From Salegentibacter tibetensis (GTDB taxonomy: Bacteria; Bacteroidota; Bacteroidia; Flavobacteriales; Flavobacteriaceae), in the NCBI RefSeq assembly GCF_020164485.1, contig NZ_JAIQZA010000004.1:1-64000 (forward strand): a DNA stretch of 64,000 nt, written 5' to 3'. Each line of letters opens with the position of its first letter. Within the stretch, counting starts at the first letter, position 1. A program made the position numbers and the translations under genes. The notes beneath the pieces are model-generated. The model searched no databases, had not been told where the DNA came from, and saw only the letters and a program-made list of their open reading frames with translations. This document shows, one piece after another, positions 36,924 to 50,956 of this stretch.

Positions 36924-37133
36924 GTAGACGTATTTGCCAGGAAGTAGGAGTCAAAGAAAAGAGACAACCTTTAAAACTCATAGGCCTGCTTACCCGACAA
37001 TTGGATGGAACTTTGCAGGTTATTTGCACCTCCGGTACTCAATATCTCTTTAATTTCAATTGCACCGGCTTCCCTGATTTTTAAAATCGCAAAAAAGGTT
37101 CAACATGACCCCTATCAAAAAGGGCTTCCGGCG

Positions 37134-37647: not shown

Positions 37648-38109
37648 TCATTCAATTGATTTAAATATATAGCGTTCATCAAATTCTACATGGTGTGTTC
37701 TTAGAAGCTCTACATACTCCTCCTGAAATGTCAATGTTCTATGATGTTTTTGTTGATTCTGAATGTATTTAATTACGCGTGGCAATTGCAATTTTGAATA
37801 TGAAAATGCGCCATATCCAGCTTGCCAGGAGAATCTACCATTTACAACTCCTTTATTGTTTATCCATTTTGATGAATCCTGTTTTACCTGTTTCATTAAA
37901 TCAGAAAGCGATTGCGTGGGGCGCATGCCAAATAATATGTGAATGTGATCCGGCATTCCGTTTATCTGTAACACTTTATGTTCGTTATTTTGGATAATGC
38001 CTGTGATGTATTTATACAATTCGTCCTTCCAATCATTTTTAATTAAACTTTCCCTGTTTTGCACTGAAAAAACTGTCTGAATATGTATTTGTGTATAGGT
38101 GTTAGCCAT
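37648..38109 (-). CDS. REP-associated tyrosine transposase (RAYT), Y1 family
   Basis: This 153-residue transposase of the IS200/IS605 (HUH, single-tyrosine) type acts on single-stranded REP hairpins. The HUH pair is in HIHILFG (about 56-62) and the catalytic tyrosine in VIKYIQNQQKHH (about 113). The NTYTQIHIQTVFSVQNR start and the FSWQAGYGAFSYS segment are typical of this branch. I use the ATG at 38109; an upstream start adds 11 residues that overlap a palindrome. No TnpB is present. Palindromes of the same class lie on both sides within 15-40 bases of the gene, which supports the RAYT identification. It looks intact. Confidence 0.85.
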   Translation of the reverse strand: MANTYTQIHIQTVFSVQNRESLIKNDWKDELYKYITGIIQNNEHKVLQINGMPDHIHILFGMRPTQSLSDLMKQVKQDSSKWINNKGVVNGRFSWQAGYGAFSYSKLQLPRVIKYIQNQQKHHRTLTFQEEYVELLRTHHVEFDERYIFKSIE

Positions 38110-38126
38110 ACTTGCTTGTTTATATA

Positions 38127-38631
38127 CCGCACCTAAAGGCACGGGGATTTGAATTAATTTTGATTTCTACCGGGATGTTGTCCCGAATGGGACATCTCTT
38201 TGTTTCGTAATCAAGATATTCTTTAACTAAAGATACGGATTTATTTTAGCGGTATATATTCTAAAAAAGGGGATTCAATTGTTTAGATAAAATTCTACTG
38301 CGGTCCCTTACGAGATATTAAAACGTTTTGATAATCAGTATATCGTTTTCTTAAAAATCTGCGGGAATTTTTCTATTAAAATGTTGTCCTAATGGGACTT
38401 AAATTCGTAAAAGATATGATCGTGAATTTCTGATTAATTTCGAGTAGAATTTTTCAATTGTTTGTCCCGTAGGGACTAGCTATCGGTAAAAAAAATCGAG
38501 AATGATAACTGTGCCGTTAGGTACAGAATATTCAAATTGGAATAGAATTTTTTTAAAAAAAACACCCCATACCTAAAGGAACGGGGATTAATTATACCGG
38601 TATGTGATCCCTAACGGGGCATGAAATCTTT
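38127..38631. repeat. REP/BIME array, right flank of the RAYT gene
   Basis: The repeats continue right of the transposase: GCACCTAAAGGCAC (about 38130-38142), TACCGGGATGTTGTCCCGAATGGGACA (split unit, about 38168-38193), degenerate units near 38312 and 38385, GTCCCGTAGGGAC followed by TAGCTATCGGTAAAA (38462-38490), GTGCCGTTAGGTAC (about 38512-38525), ACCTAAAGGAACGGGG (about 38568) and TACCGGTATGTGATCCCTAACGGGGCA (about 38596-38622). Orientation alternates. The remaining 38632-38862 shows no gene that I trust. Confidence 0.8.
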
Positions 38632-38862: not shown

Positions 38863-39129
38863 CTATAAATCAACCTGTCGCGACATGGTAATGGGTTCTA
38901 TTACCGTGTGCGAATCTTTTATCTCTTGATTTTTAGGATCGTTGATGATGGTTCCAAGCAATTCCAGATCGGTTACTTCTGCAACGATAACCACCGAATT
39001 TGGATCATCTGTATCCTGAAATGTTTTAAATTCTGAGACAGCCGGGGCAAATATTTTTTTCCGATCCTCATGGCCCTTGAGCCAGGTATTAATATCCCCA
39101 ACTTTGTGTCTAACTACAATTGTTTCCAT
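38863..39129 (-). CDS. Small dimeric alpha/beta-barrel (ABM-like) protein
   Basis: This 88-residue cytoplasmic protein has the pattern VRHKVGDINTWLKGHEDR, then a middle D-DPNSVVIVAEVTD and a terminal strand. This corresponds to a single ferredoxin-like fold of the antibiotic-biosynthesis-monooxygenase/cyclase type that works as a dimer. Some relatives are cofactor-free monooxygenases or polyketide cyclases. No catalytic residue can be named. It is the last gene of the eight-gene minus-strand cluster. Confidence 0.6.
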   Translation of the reverse strand: METIVVRHKVGDINTWLKGHEDRKKIFAPAVSEFKTFQDTDDPNSVVIVAEVTDLELLGTIINDPKNQEIKDSHTVIEPITMSRQVDL

Positions 39130-39287
39130 TGTTTTCCCTATTTAATTTTATTGCCTACTCTGGCCGGTTTTCGGCTTTCCCCGTTTTTTAGTTCATTAAA
39201 TTTTGTTTTTTAGTACATTGTTGTTAATGCTGGTTCCTGGTTCTTGCAGTCAAGCGGTCTCTCATCTTTTCCCAGACAACAATGAAA

Positions 39288-40127
39288 TTATTGACTAGAA
39301 GCATCGGCAAGTTGTTTTGTATCCACATATTGCTGAAATGCCACCACTTTTCCATCTTTTAACGTCCAAAGGTGCGCGGCCTGTACATTATAAGTTTTGC
39401 CAGTTTCTTTGACTTTAGCATCATAGCGCAAGGTGGCTAATACTTGATTGTTGCTCATTTCATGTAGCTTGATGTCTTCGAGTTTGAAATATTCGTGTTC
39501 TGCTCCAACCCTCTCGAAAATACCTTTTAAAACGGCATCCGGACCTATATAAGGATTACCATCGGCATAAGCATTGCCTTCGGCTTCGTTCCAAACAATT
39601 TCAGGATCCATTCCGGCAAGAACTGTTGGAATATCCCCTGCGGAAAAGGCTTTGTAGATACCATTTACAATACCACTATTGTTCGTGGTTTCAGGATACC
39701 GATAGCTTTTATAAATTTTCCATTGGCCATTTACATTTTTCAGGGTGTTCACAAATGTGCCTTTTTGTACCATTTGTGGTTCGTCAATTTTGGTAAAGAC
39801 AAAAGAGCCACTCACAAACATATAATCCTTATTCAAGGCTTGTTCTTCTATAGTTTTTAGAGTGATATTGTACTTCCCGTTATCGAATGTGGCTTTGTAT
39901 TGCTCTTTAACATTATTAAGTCCGGCTACCATACTGCCATCCGAATTCCGAATGGAAACATCATCAGTATATAAAGCGTTTAAATTACCAAGATCACCTG
40001 TATTTATAGTTTTGATATAGAGTTGATGCAATTGATCAACCGCTGCACTTTGAGCATTTGTTTGCAAGGAGAATATTGAAACAAATAGTACGATCCCAAT
40101 GCTGTAAATAATTTTTCGACTGTTCAT
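39288..40127 (-). CDS. Secreted protein with two NTF2/SnoaL-like domains
   Basis: This 279-residue protein has a Sec signal peptide (residues 1-25, ending TNAQS). Two cone-shaped NTF2-like domains follow: about 28-145 (LYIKTINTGDLGNLNALYTDDV, read as helix then strand) and about 150-275 (GIYKAFSAGDIPTVLAGMDPEIVWNE, then WTLKDGKVVAFQQYVD). The second is a classical SnoaL-like/ketosteroid-isomerase-like domain. Such folds bind small hydrophobic ligands or isomerise them, and the duplication could form an intramolecular dimer. Periplasmic location is inferred from the signal peptide. Three other genes in the same cluster have the same or similar folds. Confidence 0.75.
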   Translation of the reverse strand: MNSRKIIYSIGIVLFVSIFSLQTNAQSAAVDQLHQLYIKTINTGDLGNLNALYTDDVSIRNSDGSMVAGLNNVKEQYKATFDNGKYNITLKTIEEQALNKDYMFVSGSFVFTKIDEPQMVQKGTFVNTLKNVNGQWKIYKSYRYPETTNNSGIVNGIYKAFSAGDIPTVLAGMDPEIVWNEAEGNAYADGNPYIGPDAVLKGIFERVGAEHEYFKLEDIKLHEMSNNQVLATLRYDAKVKETGKTYNVQAAHLWTLKDGKVVAFQQYVDTKQLADASSQ

Positions 40128-40179
40128 GATTTCTAAAATTTTTTGTTTGTCTTTTTGAATTTTCAGTGTATAATTTTGC

Positions 40180-40584
40180 CTAATATATTTTATGCGTTTC
40201 CAACTCTATTTCAATCAGAAACTCGGGTAGCGCCAATTCTTTTACGCCCAGCCAGGATCCGGTGGGAAAATGATTTTTATAAATCTCGTTTCTATAACCT
40301 GCCACTTCCAAAAACTTCGGCATGTTAGTAGTGAACACATTTTCGACCACAACATCATCAAAGGTGCAACCGTAGTGCTTAAGTACTTTTTCCAAATCGG
40401 AATAGCAGTTTTTCATTTGCTGTTCAAAATCGCCCACAGCGGTTGGGTTACCTTCATCGTCCATACTCACTGCACCGGAGATTTTTATGCTATTTCCAAT
40501 TTTTACGGCGTGCGAATACCCATAAGTTTTTTCTACTTCCGGGCGAAGTAAAAAATATTCAGCTTTTTGGTTTGACTTTTTCAT
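40180..40584 (-). CDS. RidA/YjgF family enamine deaminase-like protein
   Basis: This protein of about 134 residues has the YjgF/RidA (chorismate-mutase-like) trimer fold. Visible markers are YSHAVKIGNSIKISGAVSMD in the first strands, DFEQQMKNCYSDLEKVLKHYG as helix one, and the signature VVVENVFTTNMP with WLGVKELALPEFLIEIE at the end. The usual catalytic Arg in the R-x-x-V region near position 105 is not obvious here, so it may not deaminate 2-aminoacrylate-type enamines. I start at the ATG at 40584 rather than a GTG 15 bases earlier. It is cytoplasmic and lies within the NTF2/ABM cluster. Confidence 0.8.
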   Translation of the reverse strand: MKKSNQKAEYFLLRPEVEKTYGYSHAVKIGNSIKISGAVSMDDEGNPTAVGDFEQQMKNCYSDLEKVLKHYGCTFDDVVVENVFTTNMPKFLEVAGYRNEIYKNHFPTGSWLGVKELALPEFLIEIELETHKIY

Positions 40585-40737
40585 AATTAAAAATTTCACT
40601 GAATAATCTATTCTTTCATTTCTATTGGAATAAGCTGAATCGGTTTGCTAATATTTAAGTTACCACAAAACGTGGTTTTTCAAAGTTGGTTATCCCGCTT
40701 GCAGTTTGGAAAAGGTTTTGCAATAACTTCTTATTAT

Positions 40738-41520
40738 TTAACGCACCTTTCTTATGAGCGTAGCCATATATTTATATTTCAGATCCCTGGATGTTAGACC
40801 TTCCTGTATTTTTTGAATTTGGTCTTCAGAAAAGTTCGGTCCGGCTTCAGCCCATCCACTAAATAACTGGTTGTAATCCTTATACATATCCACAGCTATA
40901 TGTGAAGCGTAAACATCACTTCCAACCGGTAGGATATATCTCATTAGACTCCAATTTCCCCTTACTCCCGCATCAATCTCTTTTTGATGCATAGGTTGGA
41001 AAATTTCTGTTTCAAATTTTTCATATTTCTCAGAATCTCCATCTGTTGCTTTCATTAAATTAATTCCGGCAATTGTACCTAAAGGCATCTCAAAATCATC
41101 TTCAGTGGCAGCTATTTGTTCAAGAAATATCCGCACTGCCAGATCTCTTGATTTTGCAGTGTTATTAAATTTTTCATAGCGATCATCTTCGGACATGTCC
41201 GGGTAAGCTGCTTCTAAAGCTGCCTCAAAATTCCCGGCCCCACTCATCATTTTTACGGAGTCATTATAAAGATTTACCGTTAGGTATTGGAATCCCTGGT
41301 TTTCACCGCCAGGCTGTAAACTCCACAGGTCCCATCCTAAAATATCTCCATTTTTAACGCGTTCTTCATGAATTTTTTCCCAAAATACTTCCGTTTCCAT
41401 ATAGGCTTGTTCCTGCTCATTGTCCACTTTCATAAACTCGAAAATTAAATAAAGTTTGTCCTGGGCAATACCAGTATTCCCTACCAGCATTATTGCGATT
41501 AGAATTAATAAACTTTTCAT
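40738..41520 (-). CDS. Secreted protein with two dimeric alpha/beta-barrel-like halves
   Basis: This 260-residue protein has a signal peptide (residues 1-19, ending GIAQ). The mature part seems to be two repeats of a ferredoxin-like fold: strand (KLYLIFEFMKV), long helix with ExVFWEKIHEERVKNG, then GWDLWSLQPGG and strand; the second repeat starts GTIAGINLMKA and has EIFQPMHQKEIDAGVRGNW. The W-x-L/L-M-x-Y pattern after a K/D-x-G turn is like ABM-type or NIPSNAP-like domains. The family is known to me only as uncharacterised in Flavobacteriia. Its gene lies 34 bases after the reductase gene. Confidence 0.55.
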   Translation of the reverse strand: MKSLLILIAIMLVGNTGIAQDKLYLIFEFMKVDNEQEQAYMETEVFWEKIHEERVKNGDILGWDLWSLQPGGENQGFQYLTVNLYNDSVKMMSGAGNFEAALEAAYPDMSEDDRYEKFNNTAKSRDLAVRIFLEQIAATEDDFEMPLGTIAGINLMKATDGDSEKYEKFETEIFQPMHQKEIDAGVRGNWSLMRYILPVGSDVYASHIAVDMYKDYNQLFSGWAEAGPNFSEDQIQKIQEGLTSRDLKYKYMATLIRKVR

Positions 41521-41554
41521 AATTGATAGATTTTAAATTAGTTGCTGTTTTATT

Positions 41555-42496
41555 TTAGCTTGAATAGTTACTTAATGTTTCTCTTACAGGCCTGAATTGA
41601 ATGCCCAGATCCATTCTTGCGAGATCGTTTTTATAGACGATTAGCGCTTTTTCTTTGGGTTCCAGGTGATTCAGCATTTGGTGAATATCCCATACTTTGT
41701 AGGTTTCACTGGTGAGGAGGTAATCCTTGCCGTGCAAACCCTTTTTCGTTGCCACACTGAATGTAGCAGTTGCCACATCTTCGACATCTACTACTGCAAA
41801 CGGAACATTATTATCATAGAGGGTTTGAATAAAATCATCGGGAGCTATTTTATTTTTTATAAGAAACTGTATGCCGGTAGAGGTGGAGTCTTCCCTGGTG
41901 GATAAAGATTTTCCCATCACCATCACAGGAGAAACTGAACAAATTTCAAATGGAAGTTCAGGATTATTTTCAATGAATTCCTCCACTACCTGATTGGCAA
42001 TAAATTTAGCTTGTGCATAGGGATGGCTTTCCTCACTGCTAAATCTAATGTCCTTTTCATCAAAAGTATCGGTAAAGCTTTTACCTTCTGCGGGCATAGG
42101 AAAATTGGTGTTCCAGGCCGCTACCGAAGCGATAAAAACTACTTTCTCAAGGTGTGGGGATTCACATATGGCTTCAAGGAAATTTTTAGTTCCTTTTATA
42201 GTAGGATCAAAAAGTTCCGCTTGCGGGTCTTTTACATTCAGTTGAAACGGGGTACCACTGTGAATAACAATATCACAGTCTTTTATAAAATCTTTTAAAG
42301 CATCTAAATTCTCTAGTCTGAATGCCCGTATGTGGAGGTTTTCTGAATTTTTAAGATCAAAAAGATGCTGATACTTCTCGCTTTTATTAATATCTGTAAC
42401 CGAGACTTTCACGTTGTAGCCTTCTTCCAAAAATTTCCTGGTTATGTAGCTTCCAATAAACCCTGAGCCACCAATAATTCCAACTGTCTTCATCAT
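41555..42496 (-). CDS. NAD(P)-dependent extended SDR (dihydroflavonol-reductase-like)
   Basis: This 313-residue cytoplasmic extended short-chain dehydrogenase/reductase has the NAD(P) motif GGSGFIG at 9-15 and IASVAAWNT, followed by the active-site-type YAQAKF (Y-x-x-x-K) at about 181-186. The substrate half is like dihydroflavonol 4-reductase and aldehyde/ketone reductases (SPVMVMGKSLS). It would reduce a carbonyl or epimerise a sugar or small molecule. Within the cluster it is the only clear redox enzyme, which makes the NTF2/ABM proteins candidate partners in one small-molecule conversion. Substrate unknown. Confidence 0.82.
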   Translation of the reverse strand: MMKTVGIIGGSGFIGSYITRKFLEEGYNVKVSVTDINKSEKYQHLFDLKNSENLHIRAFRLENLDALKDFIKDCDIVIHSGTPFQLNVKDPQAELFDPTIKGTKNFLEAICESPHLEKVVFIASVAAWNTNFPMPAEGKSFTDTFDEKDIRFSSEESHPYAQAKFIANQVVEEFIENNPELPFEICSVSPVMVMGKSLSTREDSTSTGIQFLIKNKIAPDDFIQTLYDNNVPFAVVDVEDVATATFSVATKKGLHGKDYLLTSETYKVWDIHQMLNHLEPKEKALIVYKNDLARMDLGIQFRPVRETLSNYSS

Positions 42497-42533
42497 CTTA
42501 TCATTTTGAATTATAAATTTCTGTGGCAGAAAT

Positions 42534-43058
42534 TTAATTCCGGTTGCTTTTTTCTAAGGAATCTGATTCATCATTCTGGTCCTTTTGGATATCCTGAATT
42601 ATTTTCGAAACATCCCAGTAACCGGCTTCACGAACTATTTTTCCGTTTACAAAATGAGCAGTTATATGCGTGGGGATTTTATACTCTTTATTATTGGCTT
42701 TAAAAGTTCCCTGCCAAAGGCCCCAGAAGTTCACCCAGGTCTCTCCCTTATCATTTACAACCATCTCATATTCAGATTCAGTTTCCACAAAATCCCAACT
42801 GGAAAACTGAGTTGCATCTTCTTTGTTTTGGGCCAGGAATTGCGACAGGTTCTGCGCATCTTTTTCCTCTACATTGTTCATTATTTTAGCGGAATCTGCA
42901 TAATGTGCAACCATAGTTTCCCAATCCCGTTCCTCATAAGCTTCCAAAACCTTCTTGTAAGTGTCTATTTCTGCCGATTGTTGCGTATAACGTTTGTCCT
43001 GTGAGTTATAGACTATGAATATGGCTATTGCAAGTCCAAATGATACTAAAGCTTTCAT
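42534..43058 (-). CDS. Membrane-anchored NTF2-like (SnoaL/DUF4440-type) protein
   Basis: This 174-residue protein has an uncleaved-looking N-terminal helix (MKALVSFGLAIAIFIVYNSQ) that would anchor or export it. The rest is one NTF2-like domain: YKKVLEAYEERDWETMVAHYADSAKIMNN as helices and first strand, then WVNFWGLWQGTFKANN and THITAHFVNGKIVREAGYWD as the curved sheet. A polar tail follows. The ligand is unknown. Spacing is 16 bases to the upstream gene and 37 bases to the reductase gene, so co-transcription is likely. Confidence 0.7.
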   Translation of the reverse strand: MKALVSFGLAIAIFIVYNSQDKRYTQQSAEIDTYKKVLEAYEERDWETMVAHYADSAKIMNNVEEKDAQNLSQFLAQNKEDATQFSSWDFVETESEYEMVVNDKGETWVNFWGLWQGTFKANNKEYKIPTHITAHFVNGKIVREAGYWDVSKIIQDIQKDQNDESDSLEKSNRN

Positions 43059-43074
43059 AAGTTTTGTTTTTTGG

Positions 43075-43494
43075 TTATTCTAAGAAATGGACTATTTTAC
43101 CATCCTTTAAAGACCAGTAATGCTTAAACTGGGTAGAGATAAATTCACATTCTGTAGATTGACGCCCGTTTACTGTTCCTGTAACTAATACCTTATCATC
43201 CTCAGGTATCTTGAAATTGAGATTCTTAAAAAGAATATTTTCCCATTCATTTTTCATTATCGCATTAAAGGAAATGCTGTACTTGCTATTGATTCCTTTC
43301 TTGCTTCCTCCTATTTCATCCCAATTTATTCCATTCGTTAATGCTGAAATCTCATTTGAATTTGCGTTCTTATTTTGTAGAAGGTCATATACCGCTTTTA
43401 CAACAATTTTATTGTTATTGTTTTGTCCCTGTAAGTAGTTTGAAGAAAGCAATACAGTCAACAAAGTGAATAAACATAGGTGTGAGGTTTTCAT
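43075..43494 (-). CDS. Small secreted NTF2-like protein
   Basis: This 139-residue protein has a signal peptide (about 1-22, MKTSHLCLFTLLTVLLSS then NYLQGQ). The mature part begins with the AVYDLLQNKNANSNEIS helix region and ends with HYWSLKDGKIVHFLE, the last-strand pattern of SnoaL/DUF4440 folds (also WTLKDGKVVAFQQ in the gene at 39288). It is shorter than a usual NTF2 domain and carries no recognisable catalytic dyad. It begins 3 bases after the upstream gene, so the pair is one transcript. Confidence 0.6.
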   Translation of the reverse strand: MKTSHLCLFTLLTVLLSSNYLQGQNNNNKIVVKAVYDLLQNKNANSNEISALTNGINWDEIGGSKKGINSKYSISFNAIMKNEWENILFKNLNFKIPEDDKVLVTGTVNGRQSTECEFISTQFKHYWSLKDGKIVHFLE

Positions 43495-43497
43495 TGG

Positions 43498-44274
43498 TCA
43501 ATCTTTAAAGTCAGTAGTTGCGGTGTAAGCTAAATCGGGGCGCATACGGCCTGTTTTAGATTCGTATTTATGAACGTACTGCATCATTTCATCAAATACC
43601 TTCTCACCTTCTTCTCCAAGAAGTTCATCTGTTTCTGCAGAAGTTTTTGCGTAAGATTGCGCATCTTTTGCTGAAATTACCGCGAGATAATAATCTCCAT
43701 TACTTCCAAAACCACTGCGGTAGATTCTAAAGTGCTGTTTAGCACCTTTCTTTTCATAAAGGGCTTTAATCTCTTTTATCTTATCTCGAAGGTTGGTAAG
43801 ATTTTGTGGTGTAACGTGAAAGAAATGCCATTTTCTGTAATCTTCGCCAACGGTATTCGTGGTAAGCCCGTTAGGCATATAAGACAGGCCATCTATTAAA
43901 TGCACTACATAATCACGGTGGGTATCATAACATTCATTAAAACGATTAAATATGGCTCTGAAGTTTTCTTCTCCCATTTTTTCAGCTAAAGGCGCCAAGG
44001 GATTCTTATCAAAATCGGCCATACTATCAATGGGTGAAATGCTCAAATATTTTCCATCATCAATACTCGCTGTAGCCCAGTTGGCATCTTTTAAATTATG
44101 CTCTTTGCAGGCAGCGATAAAATCTTTGGAAACGGCTTCATACTCTTTTTGCATAGAAGGTTTTACCTGGTCTTCGTGTACCCAAAAGGCCTGATTGGCA
44201 TTTTGAGAAAAGAGGTTGGTGGTTTGCAATACTACAATTGCAAAAAGCAAGGCAATAAAATTTAGAGTTTTCAT
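43498..44274 (-). CDS. Secreted protein of unknown function, ABM-like halves
   Basis: This 258-residue protein has a signal peptide (residues 1-23, ending NLFSQ). The mature sequence has WVHEDQVKPSMQKEYEAVSKDF followed by a strand, and later HFFHVTPQNLTNLRDKIKEIKALYEKKG, which looks like two copies of strand-long helix-strand as in alpha/beta-barrel dimer folds. It is related in layout, not obviously in sequence, to the protein at 40738. It is the first gene of the cluster, 118 bases after the LytTR regulator stop. I do not recognise the family. Confidence 0.5.
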   Translation of the reverse strand: MKTLNFIALLFAIVVLQTTNLFSQNANQAFWVHEDQVKPSMQKEYEAVSKDFIAACKEHNLKDANWATASIDDGKYLSISPIDSMADFDKNPLAPLAEKMGEENFRAIFNRFNECYDTHRDYVVHLIDGLSYMPNGLTTNTVGEDYRKWHFFHVTPQNLTNLRDKIKEIKALYEKKGAKQHFRIYRSGFGSNGDYYLAVISAKDAQSYAKTSAETDELLGEEGEKVFDEMMQYVHKYESKTGRMRPDLAYTATTDFKD

Positions 44275-44360
44275 AATTTCCTGATTTTAAATAAATAGGA
44301 AACAATTTACTTATGGAAACAACTGAAAACAAGTGGTTTAGGACGAATCGACTAAAATGC

Positions 44361-44374
44361 TGTCCTAAAGGACA
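44361..44374. promoter_or_regulatory. TGTCCTAAAGGACA palindrome before the NTF2/ABM cluster
   Basis: A perfect 14-base palindrome lies between the LytTR regulator stop (44393) and the first cluster gene (start 44274). It could be an operator or an mRNA hairpin separating the two. It also resembles the core of the REP units near 37650-38620, so a solitary REP is an alternative. Confidence 0.35.
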
Positions 44375-44392
44375 TTATTTTTTATCAAAGGC

Positions 44393-45139
44393 TTAAATGG
44401 TTTGCAATCTTTTTAAAAGCTCGGGTCTCATCCCTTTAGACATGGGAATTGCTTTTTTAGCAATAACCACATGCGTTCCCGCGATTTCGTCTATTCTGGA
44501 GAGGTTAATAATATAAGATCTATGGATTCTGAAAAAATGTCTTTGGGGCAGTTTTCTGTCCATATCTTTAAGTGTAGTCACCAGTAAATATTCTTTGTCG
44601 GTAGAAAATATCCGGCAGTAGTTGCGGTCGGCTTCTATATAACGAATAGCTTTAATATCAACTTTTACCATCGTTTCCTGGTGTCGTATAAAAAGACATT
44701 CCTTTAAAACGAAAGTAGAATTTTCAGTTTTATAACCATTGATAGGAGTGGGGATATTACATTTTAACTGATTTATGGTAAGTTCAATACTACGTTGTAA
44801 GTCCAGTTTCTTAAATGGTTTGGAAATAAAGGCATAAGGATGGGTTGATTTAGCCCTGTTAAAATTTGCGTCATCGGCATTGGCGGTAAGGTAAATAATA
44901 GCCAGATTACTATGAAATTTCTGCATTCTCTGTGCTGTTTCTATTCCATCTAACTCACCTTTAAGCTGAATATCAATTAATACAATATCCGGGAGGTTAC
45001 TTTTAATATGATTTAAGGCGTCTTCACCTCTTGGAATAATCCCTGAAACTTCGTAGCCCATTTCGGTAAGTTGCAGGGAAATATTTGCCGCAATGATCAT
45101 TTCGTCCTCAACTATTAATATTTGTATAGGTTGGATCAT
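44393..45139 (-). CDS. LytTR-family response regulator
   Basis: This 248-residue regulator has a receiver domain at 5-125 with the acidic pair Glu11/Asp12, phospho-acceptor Asp56 (IVLIDIQLKG), Thr in YLTANAD and Lys in ISKPFKK. A LytTR DNA-binding domain lies at about 145-245 (IRYIEADRNYCRIFSTDKEYL, then FFRIHRSYIINLSRI). It would bind direct repeats in target promoters after phosphorylation. No LytS-type kinase is adjacent. It is encoded directly upstream of, and in the same direction as, the NTF2/ABM cluster, so it may be its regulator. Confidence 0.9.
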   Translation of the reverse strand: MIQPIQILIVEDEMIIAANISLQLTEMGYEVSGIIPRGEDALNHIKSNLPDIVLIDIQLKGELDGIETAQRMQKFHSNLAIIYLTANADDANFNRAKSTHPYAFISKPFKKLDLQRSIELTINQLKCNIPTPINGYKTENSTFVLKECLFIRHQETMVKVDIKAIRYIEADRNYCRIFSTDKEYLLVTTLKDMDRKLPQRHFFRIHRSYIINLSRIDEIAGTHVVIAKKAIPMSKGMRPELLKRLQTI

Positions 45140-48095: not shown

Positions 48096-49913
48096 CTAAG
48101 TGGAAACCTCGGGCTTTATATTAATCCCGCTTACTAATGCTTTTAATTCTTCCAATTCACAGAGCAGCTGGGTTCTTCCGCTTTTGAAAAAATTGGTTTT
48201 CTTTGTGAATAAATCCTCGTAATAGGATATCCCTTCCAAAAGGTTAGTTTTAAATTTTTCCAGTTTTTTCTTCTGTTTAGCATTAGGTTCCTCCACGAAT
48301 TCTTCAATTTCATTCCTGAAGTATTCCAGGTATATTTTTAGTTCCTTTATAAACATATTAGGACGGTTTGACATTTCCATAACCGATACTTTTCCATAGA
48401 TATGTTGTACCATTTTTGAAAGAGAAATAACTTTGGAAAAATAGGCCATATTTGGTCCCGGACAGATTGCAACTCCCTGCGCCTGACCCTTTATTCTAAT
48501 GTCATTTTCAAGAAAAGATGCATTCCCGAGGCCAACACATAAACAGGCTTTTTCTGTTATTTTGTTTTTCTTTTTCTCCAATGCCTGCCTGGAGTGGTTT
48601 TCTTTCTGATCTTCCAGTTCTTTAAGTTTTAATTTTTGAAACTTCTTCGAAGCGGAACAAACTCCCTTCTCATCGTATTCTTTACTCAGGGCCAGGAATT
48701 TTTTAGGACAGGAACTACCACTTTTGTTTTTAGCAATTCGTTTTAATTTCAAGGCTTCGTTTGTGGTTCCCTTTACGGTGTTAAAGGGTATCCCAAGAGG
48801 AGAAATATGGCTTAAATAAAGATCTTCTTCCCTGGCTTTTGCCAGTAACCTACGTGTTTCAGTATCAACCGAAGTAGCTTCCGGAACAAGTAAAAATGGA
48901 GTACCCCATCCAACAGAAGAAACCTGGTAATGTTCCAGTAAAAAGTTATGCTCTTCAGAAGTACCCACACCGCCCTGTACCGTGATTTTTAGATCAAAGG
49001 GTTTTTCAGGAACAGGTATTTCTTTTTGAATTAAAGCTTTACTCATCAATTCGTGAGCAGATTGAATAAGTTCCTCTTTTTTCTGATTAAATTCCTCCAG
49101 GATTGGCCCAAGCAGATACCCATCGGTAGCAAAGGCATGTCCTCCACAGTTCAGCCCGGATTCTATTCGATACTCCGATACCCATAATCCTTTTTTAGCC
49201 AGGTAATTTCCCTGGATCGAGGCAGACCTAAAATCACTTACTTTCAGGATAATTTTCTTTTTAAGGTTTCCATTTGTGTCTGGAAAAAAATCTCTAAAAT
49301 TTTCAAAATAGCTATAAAGCCTGGGGTTTAATCCTGCAGAAAGAACAACTGAAGAAGAAAGTTTTGAATTGGCAAATCCGCGTAGGGCCGCATGGGCATC
49401 ATTAAATTCTACAGGTAATTGCTCGTTTTTTATGTAATTATCCTTGTCGATCTTAGCCATGATATTTACATCAATACTACCTGGGCTTAGATTTTTCTCT
49501 ATATACTTATTCAATTTTTCTTCGGAATCCACTCCGTTATTCAGAAAATTTTGAAGACCCTGTTTCATTTCAGAATGATTGGGTAGCATGGAAATGTAAT
49601 TTTCTAATGCCGTTTTGCTTTCAGAAAGTTCCTTTTTGAAATCCTCAAATTTATCCTGAACAATCTTGTGTACCATGTCTAAATAAGAAGTGATGCGTTC
49701 GGCCCGGGAGTCGCGATTGCTTTTTGGAATTTCCCGATAAGGCAAATTGTATTTCTTACTGTAAAAAGCATTCATTTTATCAATAAGCTCGTCGTCAATA
49801 ATGGAGATCACAGAAGATATTCCATATTTAGCAACCCGAAGAGGACTGTCAATGGTAAAAGCTGTTCCCATCACCGGGATATGAAAACTGTGCACTTGGT
49901 TTGTTCTGGTCAT
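48096..49913 (-). CDS. Unknown protein, distant nitronate-monooxygenase-like TIM barrel
   Basis: This cytoplasmic protein of about 605 residues has no signal peptide. The start HSFHIPVMGTAFTIDSPLRVA resembles the first strand of NMO/FabK/IMPDH-type flavin barrels. Near the middle, GLNCGGHAFATDG recalls the NMO glycine/His motif, and VQGGVGTSEEH followed by VGWGTPFLLVPEA recalls the phosphate-binding and GTRFL segments. Long helical inserts (about 85-160) and a Cys-rich C-terminal third (Cys402, Cys419, Cys457, Cys459, Cys484) are unusual and may bind a metal or Fe-S cluster. I use the second Met (49913); an upstream Met adds 11 residues. It is monocistronic. Function unknown. Confidence 0.6.
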   Translation of the reverse strand: MTRTNQVHSFHIPVMGTAFTIDSPLRVAKYGISSVISIIDDELIDKMNAFYSKKYNLPYREIPKSNRDSRAERITSYLDMVHKIVQDKFEDFKKELSESKTALENYISMLPNHSEMKQGLQNFLNNGVDSEEKLNKYIEKNLSPGSIDVNIMAKIDKDNYIKNEQLPVEFNDAHAALRGFANSKLSSSVVLSAGLNPRLYSYFENFRDFFPDTNGNLKKKIILKVSDFRSASIQGNYLAKKGLWVSEYRIESGLNCGGHAFATDGYLLGPILEEFNQKKEELIQSAHELMSKALIQKEIPVPEKPFDLKITVQGGVGTSEEHNFLLEHYQVSSVGWGTPFLLVPEATSVDTETRRLLAKAREEDLYLSHISPLGIPFNTVKGTTNEALKLKRIAKNKSGSSCPKKFLALSKEYDEKGVCSASKKFQKLKLKELEDQKENHSRQALEKKKNKITEKACLCVGLGNASFLENDIRIKGQAQGVAICPGPNMAYFSKVISLSKMVQHIYGKVSVMEMSNRPNMFIKELKIYLEYFRNEIEEFVEEPNAKQKKKLEKFKTNLLEGISYYEDLFTKKTNFFKSGRTQLLCELEELKALVSGINIKPEVST

Positions 49914-50956
49914 GTTGTAAATAGTTTTATTACCGGCAGCCTGCAAAATTTAGCATGCCAGGGCGCCTGTTTAAAATGAGAAGCTAAGCTTCCAATTTGT
50001 AAAGAAAAGAGGTTGAAAAGTTCAAAAAAATGACTCGGATCATATTTAGAAAATAAAGTCTAAATTTTTTGAGGTTTAGCTTAATCGTGAACAGCTAATT
50101 TCAGTTATGGCAGAAAAGGTTTATACGATCTTTGTTTTAGCTGGATGTTTTTTCGGTAATATTTTTGCTGAATTTCCAATTTGAATTTTCAGCATTATGA
50201 GTTGATAAAAAACAGAAGCCTTTTATAGAAACAAAAAAACTTAAAATTAGGAATTAATAATTGGGCTGATGAAGAGGAATGCTTATCCGTTTAAAAACCT
50301 AAAAACAGTTTTTGTCACCCTGAGACCCGTGACAAAAATTTACCTAGCGTAGGAATATGACGTTTCGAGCATAGCGAGTTTTAAACTACGTGTGTGAGTG
50401 TAGAGAATCAGCAACGTTAAAAATTTTTGAAAGCTTGTCCTGAGTGGAGTTGAAGGGGCCTGGAAAAAATTTAGCTGCTGATTTGGGATTTTTTGTGCCT
50501 CCGACGACCAAAAGGGAGAGGAAGGCAGTTGCCAAAAAAACACCTCCACATAGGGCGCCCTTCCTGCCCGTCCGTTTGGTCGGGTTTTGTTTCGTTTTAA
50601 TTGTATCCAACGAACGGAGTGAGAGGAATACACACAAAAAATGAAAAAGGAAACTTCCATACCAGTTAAGTTTCATTTTGAATTATAAAAACAAGCCTGA
50701 TTAACAGGATTTTAAAATTACGTCAATGGTAGCGCAGTCGAAGGGTCAAACAAAAGCGTCTCGACTGTGCTCGACGTGACACCTTATTTCAATTTTGCCT
50801 TTTGGGTCTCTTAGCGGATATACAATGAAGAGGAAAACAGAAATATGTTAACCAAATAAAGATCCTAATCTAAACTTGTTAAGGGAGAGATATCAAATTC
50901 TGATGGGAAAAAGAAAAATACTTATCACTAAAGACCGGTCAGGACTTTAATTATTC
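49914..50956. other. 1-kb repeat-rich non-coding island
   Basis: No trustworthy gene was found in 1043 bases. The part 50430-50640 is visibly more GC-rich than its surroundings and contains CTTGTCCTGAGTGGAGTTG-like intergenic repeat sequence, GAAGGCAG...GCGCCCTTCCTGCC partial inverted repeats and GTTTGGTCGGG. Long open frames on the minus strand overlap each other in two phases and have low-complexity, non-protein-like products. A 25-codon plus-strand frame at 50107-50184 is of doubtful value. It may be a scar of a mobile element. Confidence 0.5.
50729..50783. repeat. Imperfect palindromic intergenic repeat
   Basis: GCGCAGTCGA (50732-50741) pairs with TCGACTGTGC (50761-50770) with one mismatch around a 19-base loop. 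The wording AGCGCAGTCGAAGG...CTCGACTGTGCTCGACGTGAC resembles a repeat widely seen between genes in Bacteroidota and other phyla. Confidence 0.6.

Follow-up and report, generated by a model that had tools for sequence, protein, structure and literature searches.

Among described systems, the closest counterparts of the locus treated here include LytTR-family two-component systems such as AgrCA of Staphylococcus aureus, whose LytTR regulator AgrA binds direct repeats; its two half-sites precede the promoter and have their centre near -60 (PMC4227749). In flavobacteria, a LytTR/kinase pair of Flavobacterium johnsoniae has been found mutated under antibiotic pressure (PMC10197871), which is not shown to be identical to the present system. 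This system was analyzed in Salegentibacter tibetensis, on a stretch of 64,000 nucleotides (contig NZ_JAIQZA010000004.1, positions 1 to 64,000; hereafter the window). Positions 38863-45139 comprise nine consecutive minus-strand open reading frames (ORFs), i.e., eight cluster genes (38863-44274), numbered g1 to g8 by ascending coordinate, and upstream of them an intact LytTR response regulator of 248 amino acids (44393-45139) with a receiver and a LytTR DNA-binding domain (Pfam Response_reg 3.3e-21, LytTR 8.4e-20). We read the cluster as the central operon of a regulon under two-component control that is largely specific to Flavobacteriaceae, with a probability of about 0.6. The conserved gene set is predicted to be mostly extracytoplasmic, and the LytTR regulator very probably governs its expression via a conserved operator.

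The presumed operator emerged from an alignment of upstream regions as a conserved 25-base-pair (bp) site, TTCGGACA-N13-TTCGTCC(TAA), with half-sites 21 bp apart. In the window, the candidate site GGACAGCATTTTAGTCGATTCGTCC (44341-44365, minus strand) with this same spacing lies about 66 bp upstream of the lead gene, g8, and a candidate promoter box TAAATTGT, located by eye about 31 bp downstream of the site, agrees with the TAnnTTGY motif described in F. psychrophilum (PMC9723704). An automatic count across 98 loci detected the site at 62 out of 67 regulator-cluster loci. Of the five misses, two (L071 and L077) carry only unrelated LytTR proteins and a third (L169) has the site before an unlisted gene, so that the corrected proportion is 63 out of 65 kinase/regulator loci versus 1 out of 33 others (p about 3e-22, a value that overstates independence because the loci are phylogenetically related). 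The lone site among the 33 other loci precedes a stand-alone, unlinked g4 gene, and the genome concerned carries the system at another place.

A genome-wide scan extends this picture. The exact pattern occurs once in the genome of the window and 28 times in 29 scanned genomes, compared to 12 matches for a reversed control pattern, and it is absent from seven comparison genomes in which no linked system was seen. Three genomes picked as controls, since they contain g8 with no linked system (G125, G070 and G133), have a kinase and module genes at their match. There are 11 unlinked matches, nine of which are located about 60 to 190 bp upstream of stand-alone tandem-barrel, double-NTF2, SnoaL or g4 genes (the exceptions are L204 and L212). 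Of these 11 loci, only the unlinked g4 locus in genome G103 (L098, identical to L223) had contributed to the pattern, so that this result approximates a blind test of the regulon. A scan of 15 genomes with one mismatch allowed added a few targets (L229, L230 and perhaps L234) and also matched inside genes, for which reason the exact pattern is preferred. Because nine of the 11 unlinked sites precede solitary members of these secreted families, a dispersed two-component regulon is predicted, and we place high confidence in both this regulon and its operator as sequence-based predictions.

The neighbourhood of g8 was compared over 40 loci, plus 57 named loci. The recurring module consists of a TPR-HisKA_2 kinase, the LytTR regulator, g8 and SnoaL lipoproteins, supplemented by variable genes encoding a short-chain dehydrogenase/reductase (SDR), a Rid protein, a cupin, an O-methyltransferase, g4, g1, g7 and further tandem-barrel proteins. 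For instance, Gillisia limnaea (L127) carries all cluster genes of the window in identical order, together with the kinase and one extra tandem-barrel gene, and g1 orthologs lie within the modules of Gillisia, Bizionia, Arenibacter and Maribacter. Overall, gene content varies strongly among species. The g8 gene itself is found in 50 out of 149 sampled Flavobacteriaceae genomes and is nearly confined to this family, with three out of 295 genomes at class level, the window's own included. Its closest named relatives occur in S. lacus (93% identity) and Salegentibacter sp. 24 (89%). Tandem duplications of g8 are seen at L145, L149, L153 and L160, whose copies share about 43% and 56 to 63% identity with g8 of the window.

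The first-pass annotation of this DNA described the regulator as an orphan, a view that the relatives do not sustain. They encode a linked TPR-HisKA_2 membrane histidine kinase, which in Salegentibacter (L120, L123 and L124) is situated beyond the last cluster gene and runs on the other strand. At this position the window retains no more than the final 33 or so codons (36974 to 37075 or 37081, plus strand; 79% identical to the C-terminal end of the linked kinase of Salegentibacter, E = 8e-11), and an IS200-like Y1 transposase gene (37648-38142, minus strand; Pfam Y1_Tnp 2e-28) occupies the gap. This arrangement indicates that the linked kinase is deleted in the window strain, while S. lacus retains a decayed 5' portion. 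The window genome does encode one unlinked kinase of the TPR-HisKA_2 type on another contig (G000:C67, positions 85830-87956; 709 amino acids), and a 79%-identical relative of it directly precedes the LytTR and g8 genes in Confluentibacter flavum (L141). Orthologs of the module regulator occur in 10 out of 15 Salegentibacter genomes. The unlinked kinase is present in six of these 10 (one partial) versus none of the five others (Fisher p = 0.044), and a replacement test within the module-bearing Salegentibacter genomes is suggestive only (p = 0.19). The unlinked protein is put forward as the probable replacement partner of the LytTR regulator.

In layout, the cluster is as the first-pass annotation had it, with eight minus-strand genes behind the regulator. 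The intergenic distances from g1 to the regulator are 158, 52, 138, 34, 37, 16, 3 and 118 bases, five of which fall between 3 and 52 as claimed. The five proposed N-terminal signal or anchor sequences are likewise visible, namely in g2, g4, g6, g7 and g8. The core member g8 (43498-44274) is a secreted protein whose AlphaFold2 model comprises two tandem ferredoxin-like halves, i.e., a fused dimeric alpha/beta barrel, at a predicted local distance difference test score (pLDDT) of 94. The secreted g4 protein (40738-41520) is modelled with the same topology (pLDDT 82, the best of five models that show a wide spread). Structural matches in the Protein Data Bank (PDB) reach Z-scores up to 14.7 for g8, and 16.9 (2pgc) and 16.3 (sulfur oxygenase reductase) for g4. 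The structural neighbours include sulfur oxygenase reductase, the anthrone-oxidase-like 5f9p, PenE, 2pgc (a protein from a marine metagenome) and barrels of the HemQ/chlorite-dismutase type, as well as barrels that bind haem, among them HmoB and coproheme decarboxylases. Since the best matches share just 6 to 14% sequence identity, the fold alone is supported. Sequence homology between g8 and g4 was also considered, but profile comparison did not support it (probability 15%). Two of the three dimeric alpha/beta barrels that had been proposed thus find support in structure models; the third, the 88-amino-acid cytoplasmic protein g1 (38863-39129), shows no significant fold evidence, with no match in fold searches and no support from a profile comparison with EthD. 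Sequence searches of the PDB with g8, g4, g1 and g6 gave no significant match, and g8, g4, g7 and g1 have no significant Pfam or NCBIfam family match.

All three proposed NTF2/SnoaL folds are supported. The secreted g2 protein (39288-40127) contains two SnoaL-type domains (Pfam SnoaL_2 4.6e-17, DUF4440 1e-15) and g6 (42534-43058) one (Pfam SnoaL 1.5e-9). The secreted g7 protein (43075-43494; 139 amino acids) matches the NTF2-superfamily structure PDB 3grd at E = 4.7e-4 with a family profile only (13 members in the family alignment); the single-sequence Pfam comparison gives E = 0.16. Relatives of g6 carry a lipobox in 83% of the module copies; g6 itself, a lipoprotein in most relatives, has lost the lipobox cysteine here and in the near relatives L120 and L121. 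The NAD(P) reductase, g5 (41555-42496), belongs to the NAD-dependent epimerase/dehydratase family and is a cytoplasmic SDR (Pfam Epimerase 9.1e-20, 3Beta_HSD 2e-17). For g3 (40180-40599), the first-pass annotation had proposed a RidA protein that clears enamines. The Rid fold is clear (Pfam Ribonuc_L-PSP, PF01042, 3.3e-22), but glycine takes the position of the imine-hydrolysis arginine (Arg105 in Escherichia coli TdcF), as it does in 18 out of 19 module copies. This arginine is needed for imine hydrolysis, and the Rid4 to Rid7 subfamilies, which do not have it, are not thought to hydrolyse imines (PMC4433059). RidA-type enamine clearance is hence unlikely for g3. In many relatives the Rid protein has a signal or lipoprotein N-terminus.

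An Rfam search of the window returned no match, and PHROGs gave none either. Elsewhere in the window, a minus-strand ORF of 616 amino acids (48096-49946) has no Pfam match. A scan for sigma-70-type promoters and terminators yielded no signal above shuffled background; the phylum uses other promoters than the sigma-70 type.

Taken as a mechanism, the kinase would sense an envelope signal, upon which the phosphorylated LytTR protein would bind the 25-bp site just upstream of the promoter and activate the genes. In the periplasm and outer membrane, the secreted proteins could bind reactive small molecules or transform them, the likeliest ligands or substrates being aromatic, quinone-like or polyketide-like compounds. 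That small-molecule chemistry takes place in the envelope is an assumption that we slightly favour, whereas the aromatic or quinone nature of the substrate is more tentative. The latter is suggested by accessory genes in some modules, which encode an intradiol dioxygenase (PF00775), an EthD protein (PF07110) and a 4HBT_2 thioesterase, and by a COMT-type O-methyltransferase in modules of relatives. A bolder joint reading, which we deem unlikely as a whole, is that one TPR-HisKA_2/LytTR pair commands a dispersed and species-specific toolkit of secreted or lipid-anchored barrel and SnoaL enzymes in marine Flavobacteriaceae that tailors or degrades small molecules outside the cytoplasm, as a cell-surface counterpart of polyketide/quinone tailoring chemistry.

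Several observations weigh against the regulon and its proposed chemistry. Two module loci do not have the exact site, which is degenerate in L075 and was not found in L092. The window cluster contains no intact kinase, and in S. sediminis (L062/L129) the regulator and operator are present while neither a linked nor an unlinked kinase was found. In around a dozen genomes, g8 and a SnoaL lipoprotein gene share a housekeeping neighbourhood that has no kinase, regulator or operator close by, so the regulation is not universal. This fixed locus (L084-L101) may represent an older setting of the two genes, or an independent one. The aromatic-type genes occur in a minority of the modules and not in the window, and the modelled similarity of g8 and g4 to oxygenases does not show activity. 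More generally, binding, expression and enzyme activity are predictions only.

The main rival to an enzymatic role is non-catalytic ligand binding. The secreted proteins would then buffer or sequester haem, quinones or another ligand, or serve as co-sensors of the kinase, instead of forming a pathway. The haem-binding barrels among the structural neighbours would fit such a role, as would the many paralogous families of two folds within one regulon that includes few classical enzymes, and a Rid protein devoid of its catalytic arginine. Nonetheless, SDR, O-methyltransferase, dioxygenase and SnoaL proteins stand alongside in relatives, and the invariant H33 and D35 of g8, together with other polar invariants, suggest an active pocket, which leaves pure binding rather doubtful. 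A more specific proposal is a catabolic or detoxification route for a particular algal or plant phenolic, in which the SDR and the O-methyltransferase would each catalyse a step. Proteins of the intradiol dioxygenase and EthD-domain types indeed occur in some modules of Arenibacter, Maribacter, Confluentibacter and Flavobacterium, and the host genera of the module are often associated with algae. However, the conserved set does not include a complete catabolic pathway, a transporter or a TonB receptor, and its content differs strongly between species; we regard this route as somewhat less probable still.

The remaining alternatives concern the regulon itself. The 25-bp site could be part of an RNA leader or serve a different transcription factor, its linkage to LytTR being incidental. 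Binding by LytTR is predicted only, and the half-sites also allow an inverted-repeat reading, while AgrA binds direct repeats (PMC4227749). Against this, the presence of the site tracks the regulator over loci and genomes, the 21-bp spacing of the TTCG half-sites fits a LytTR-type direct repeat, and the site lies between divergent operons at a similar distance from both, unlike a leader, which makes another owner of the site improbable. Least credible of all is the view that unrelated stress genes, sharing no function, are grouped here loosely or by chance. Individual families do occur singly elsewhere in genomes, but their recurrent co-location in tens of genera, which the neighbourhood search suggested in the first-pass annotation brought out, and the operator shared by linked and unlinked members argue strongly against chance grouping.

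Under this regulon, many unannotated secreted proteins of marine flavobacteria, such as the g8 and g4 families for which no Pfam model exists, can be assigned to one regulator and one kinase and to a DNA site that can be read, and their function thereby becomes testable. Given the signal, transcripts of the whole predicted regulon should shift together. The window species adds a case in which the linked kinase is apparently lost while regulator, operator and targets are kept.

Compared to AgrCA, the regulator shares the combination of a receiver with a LytTR domain and a pair of repeated half-sites ahead of the promoter. The centre of the cluster site, which precedes a guessed start point by about 56 bp, is near the AgrA position. 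The kinase, however, is of the TPR-HisKA_2 type and not of the AgrC type, the half-sites differ in sequence, and the predicted targets are secreted tandem-barrel and SnoaL proteins. By domain match (g2 and g6) or profile match (g7), three cluster proteins resemble SnoaL/NTF2 polyketide cyclases and ketosteroid-isomerase-like proteins, but they are secreted or lipid-anchored and no polyketide synthase is seen nearby. Similarly, g8 and g4 share the fused tandem ferredoxin-like fold with dimeric alpha/beta-barrel oxygenases (sulfur oxygenase reductase, 5f9p, PenE, chlorite dismutase/HemQ; Z 14 to 17), while they are secreted and have neither a Pfam match nor any significant sequence match to a curated ABM family (Pfam, NCBIfam), so that the likeness is one of fold only. 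The g3 protein follows the Rid (YjgF/YER057c/UK114) family in fold and overall sequence, and departs from RidA by its glycine and by the secreted or lipoprotein form of many relatives. In line with the first-pass annotation, the literature searched, which included few subscription papers, gave no LytTR-SnoaL system in flavobacteria. Set beside these systems, the cluster appears to represent a set of secreted proteins for handling small molecules, under the control of a switch, which had not been described before and of which dozens of marine flavobacteria carry a copy.

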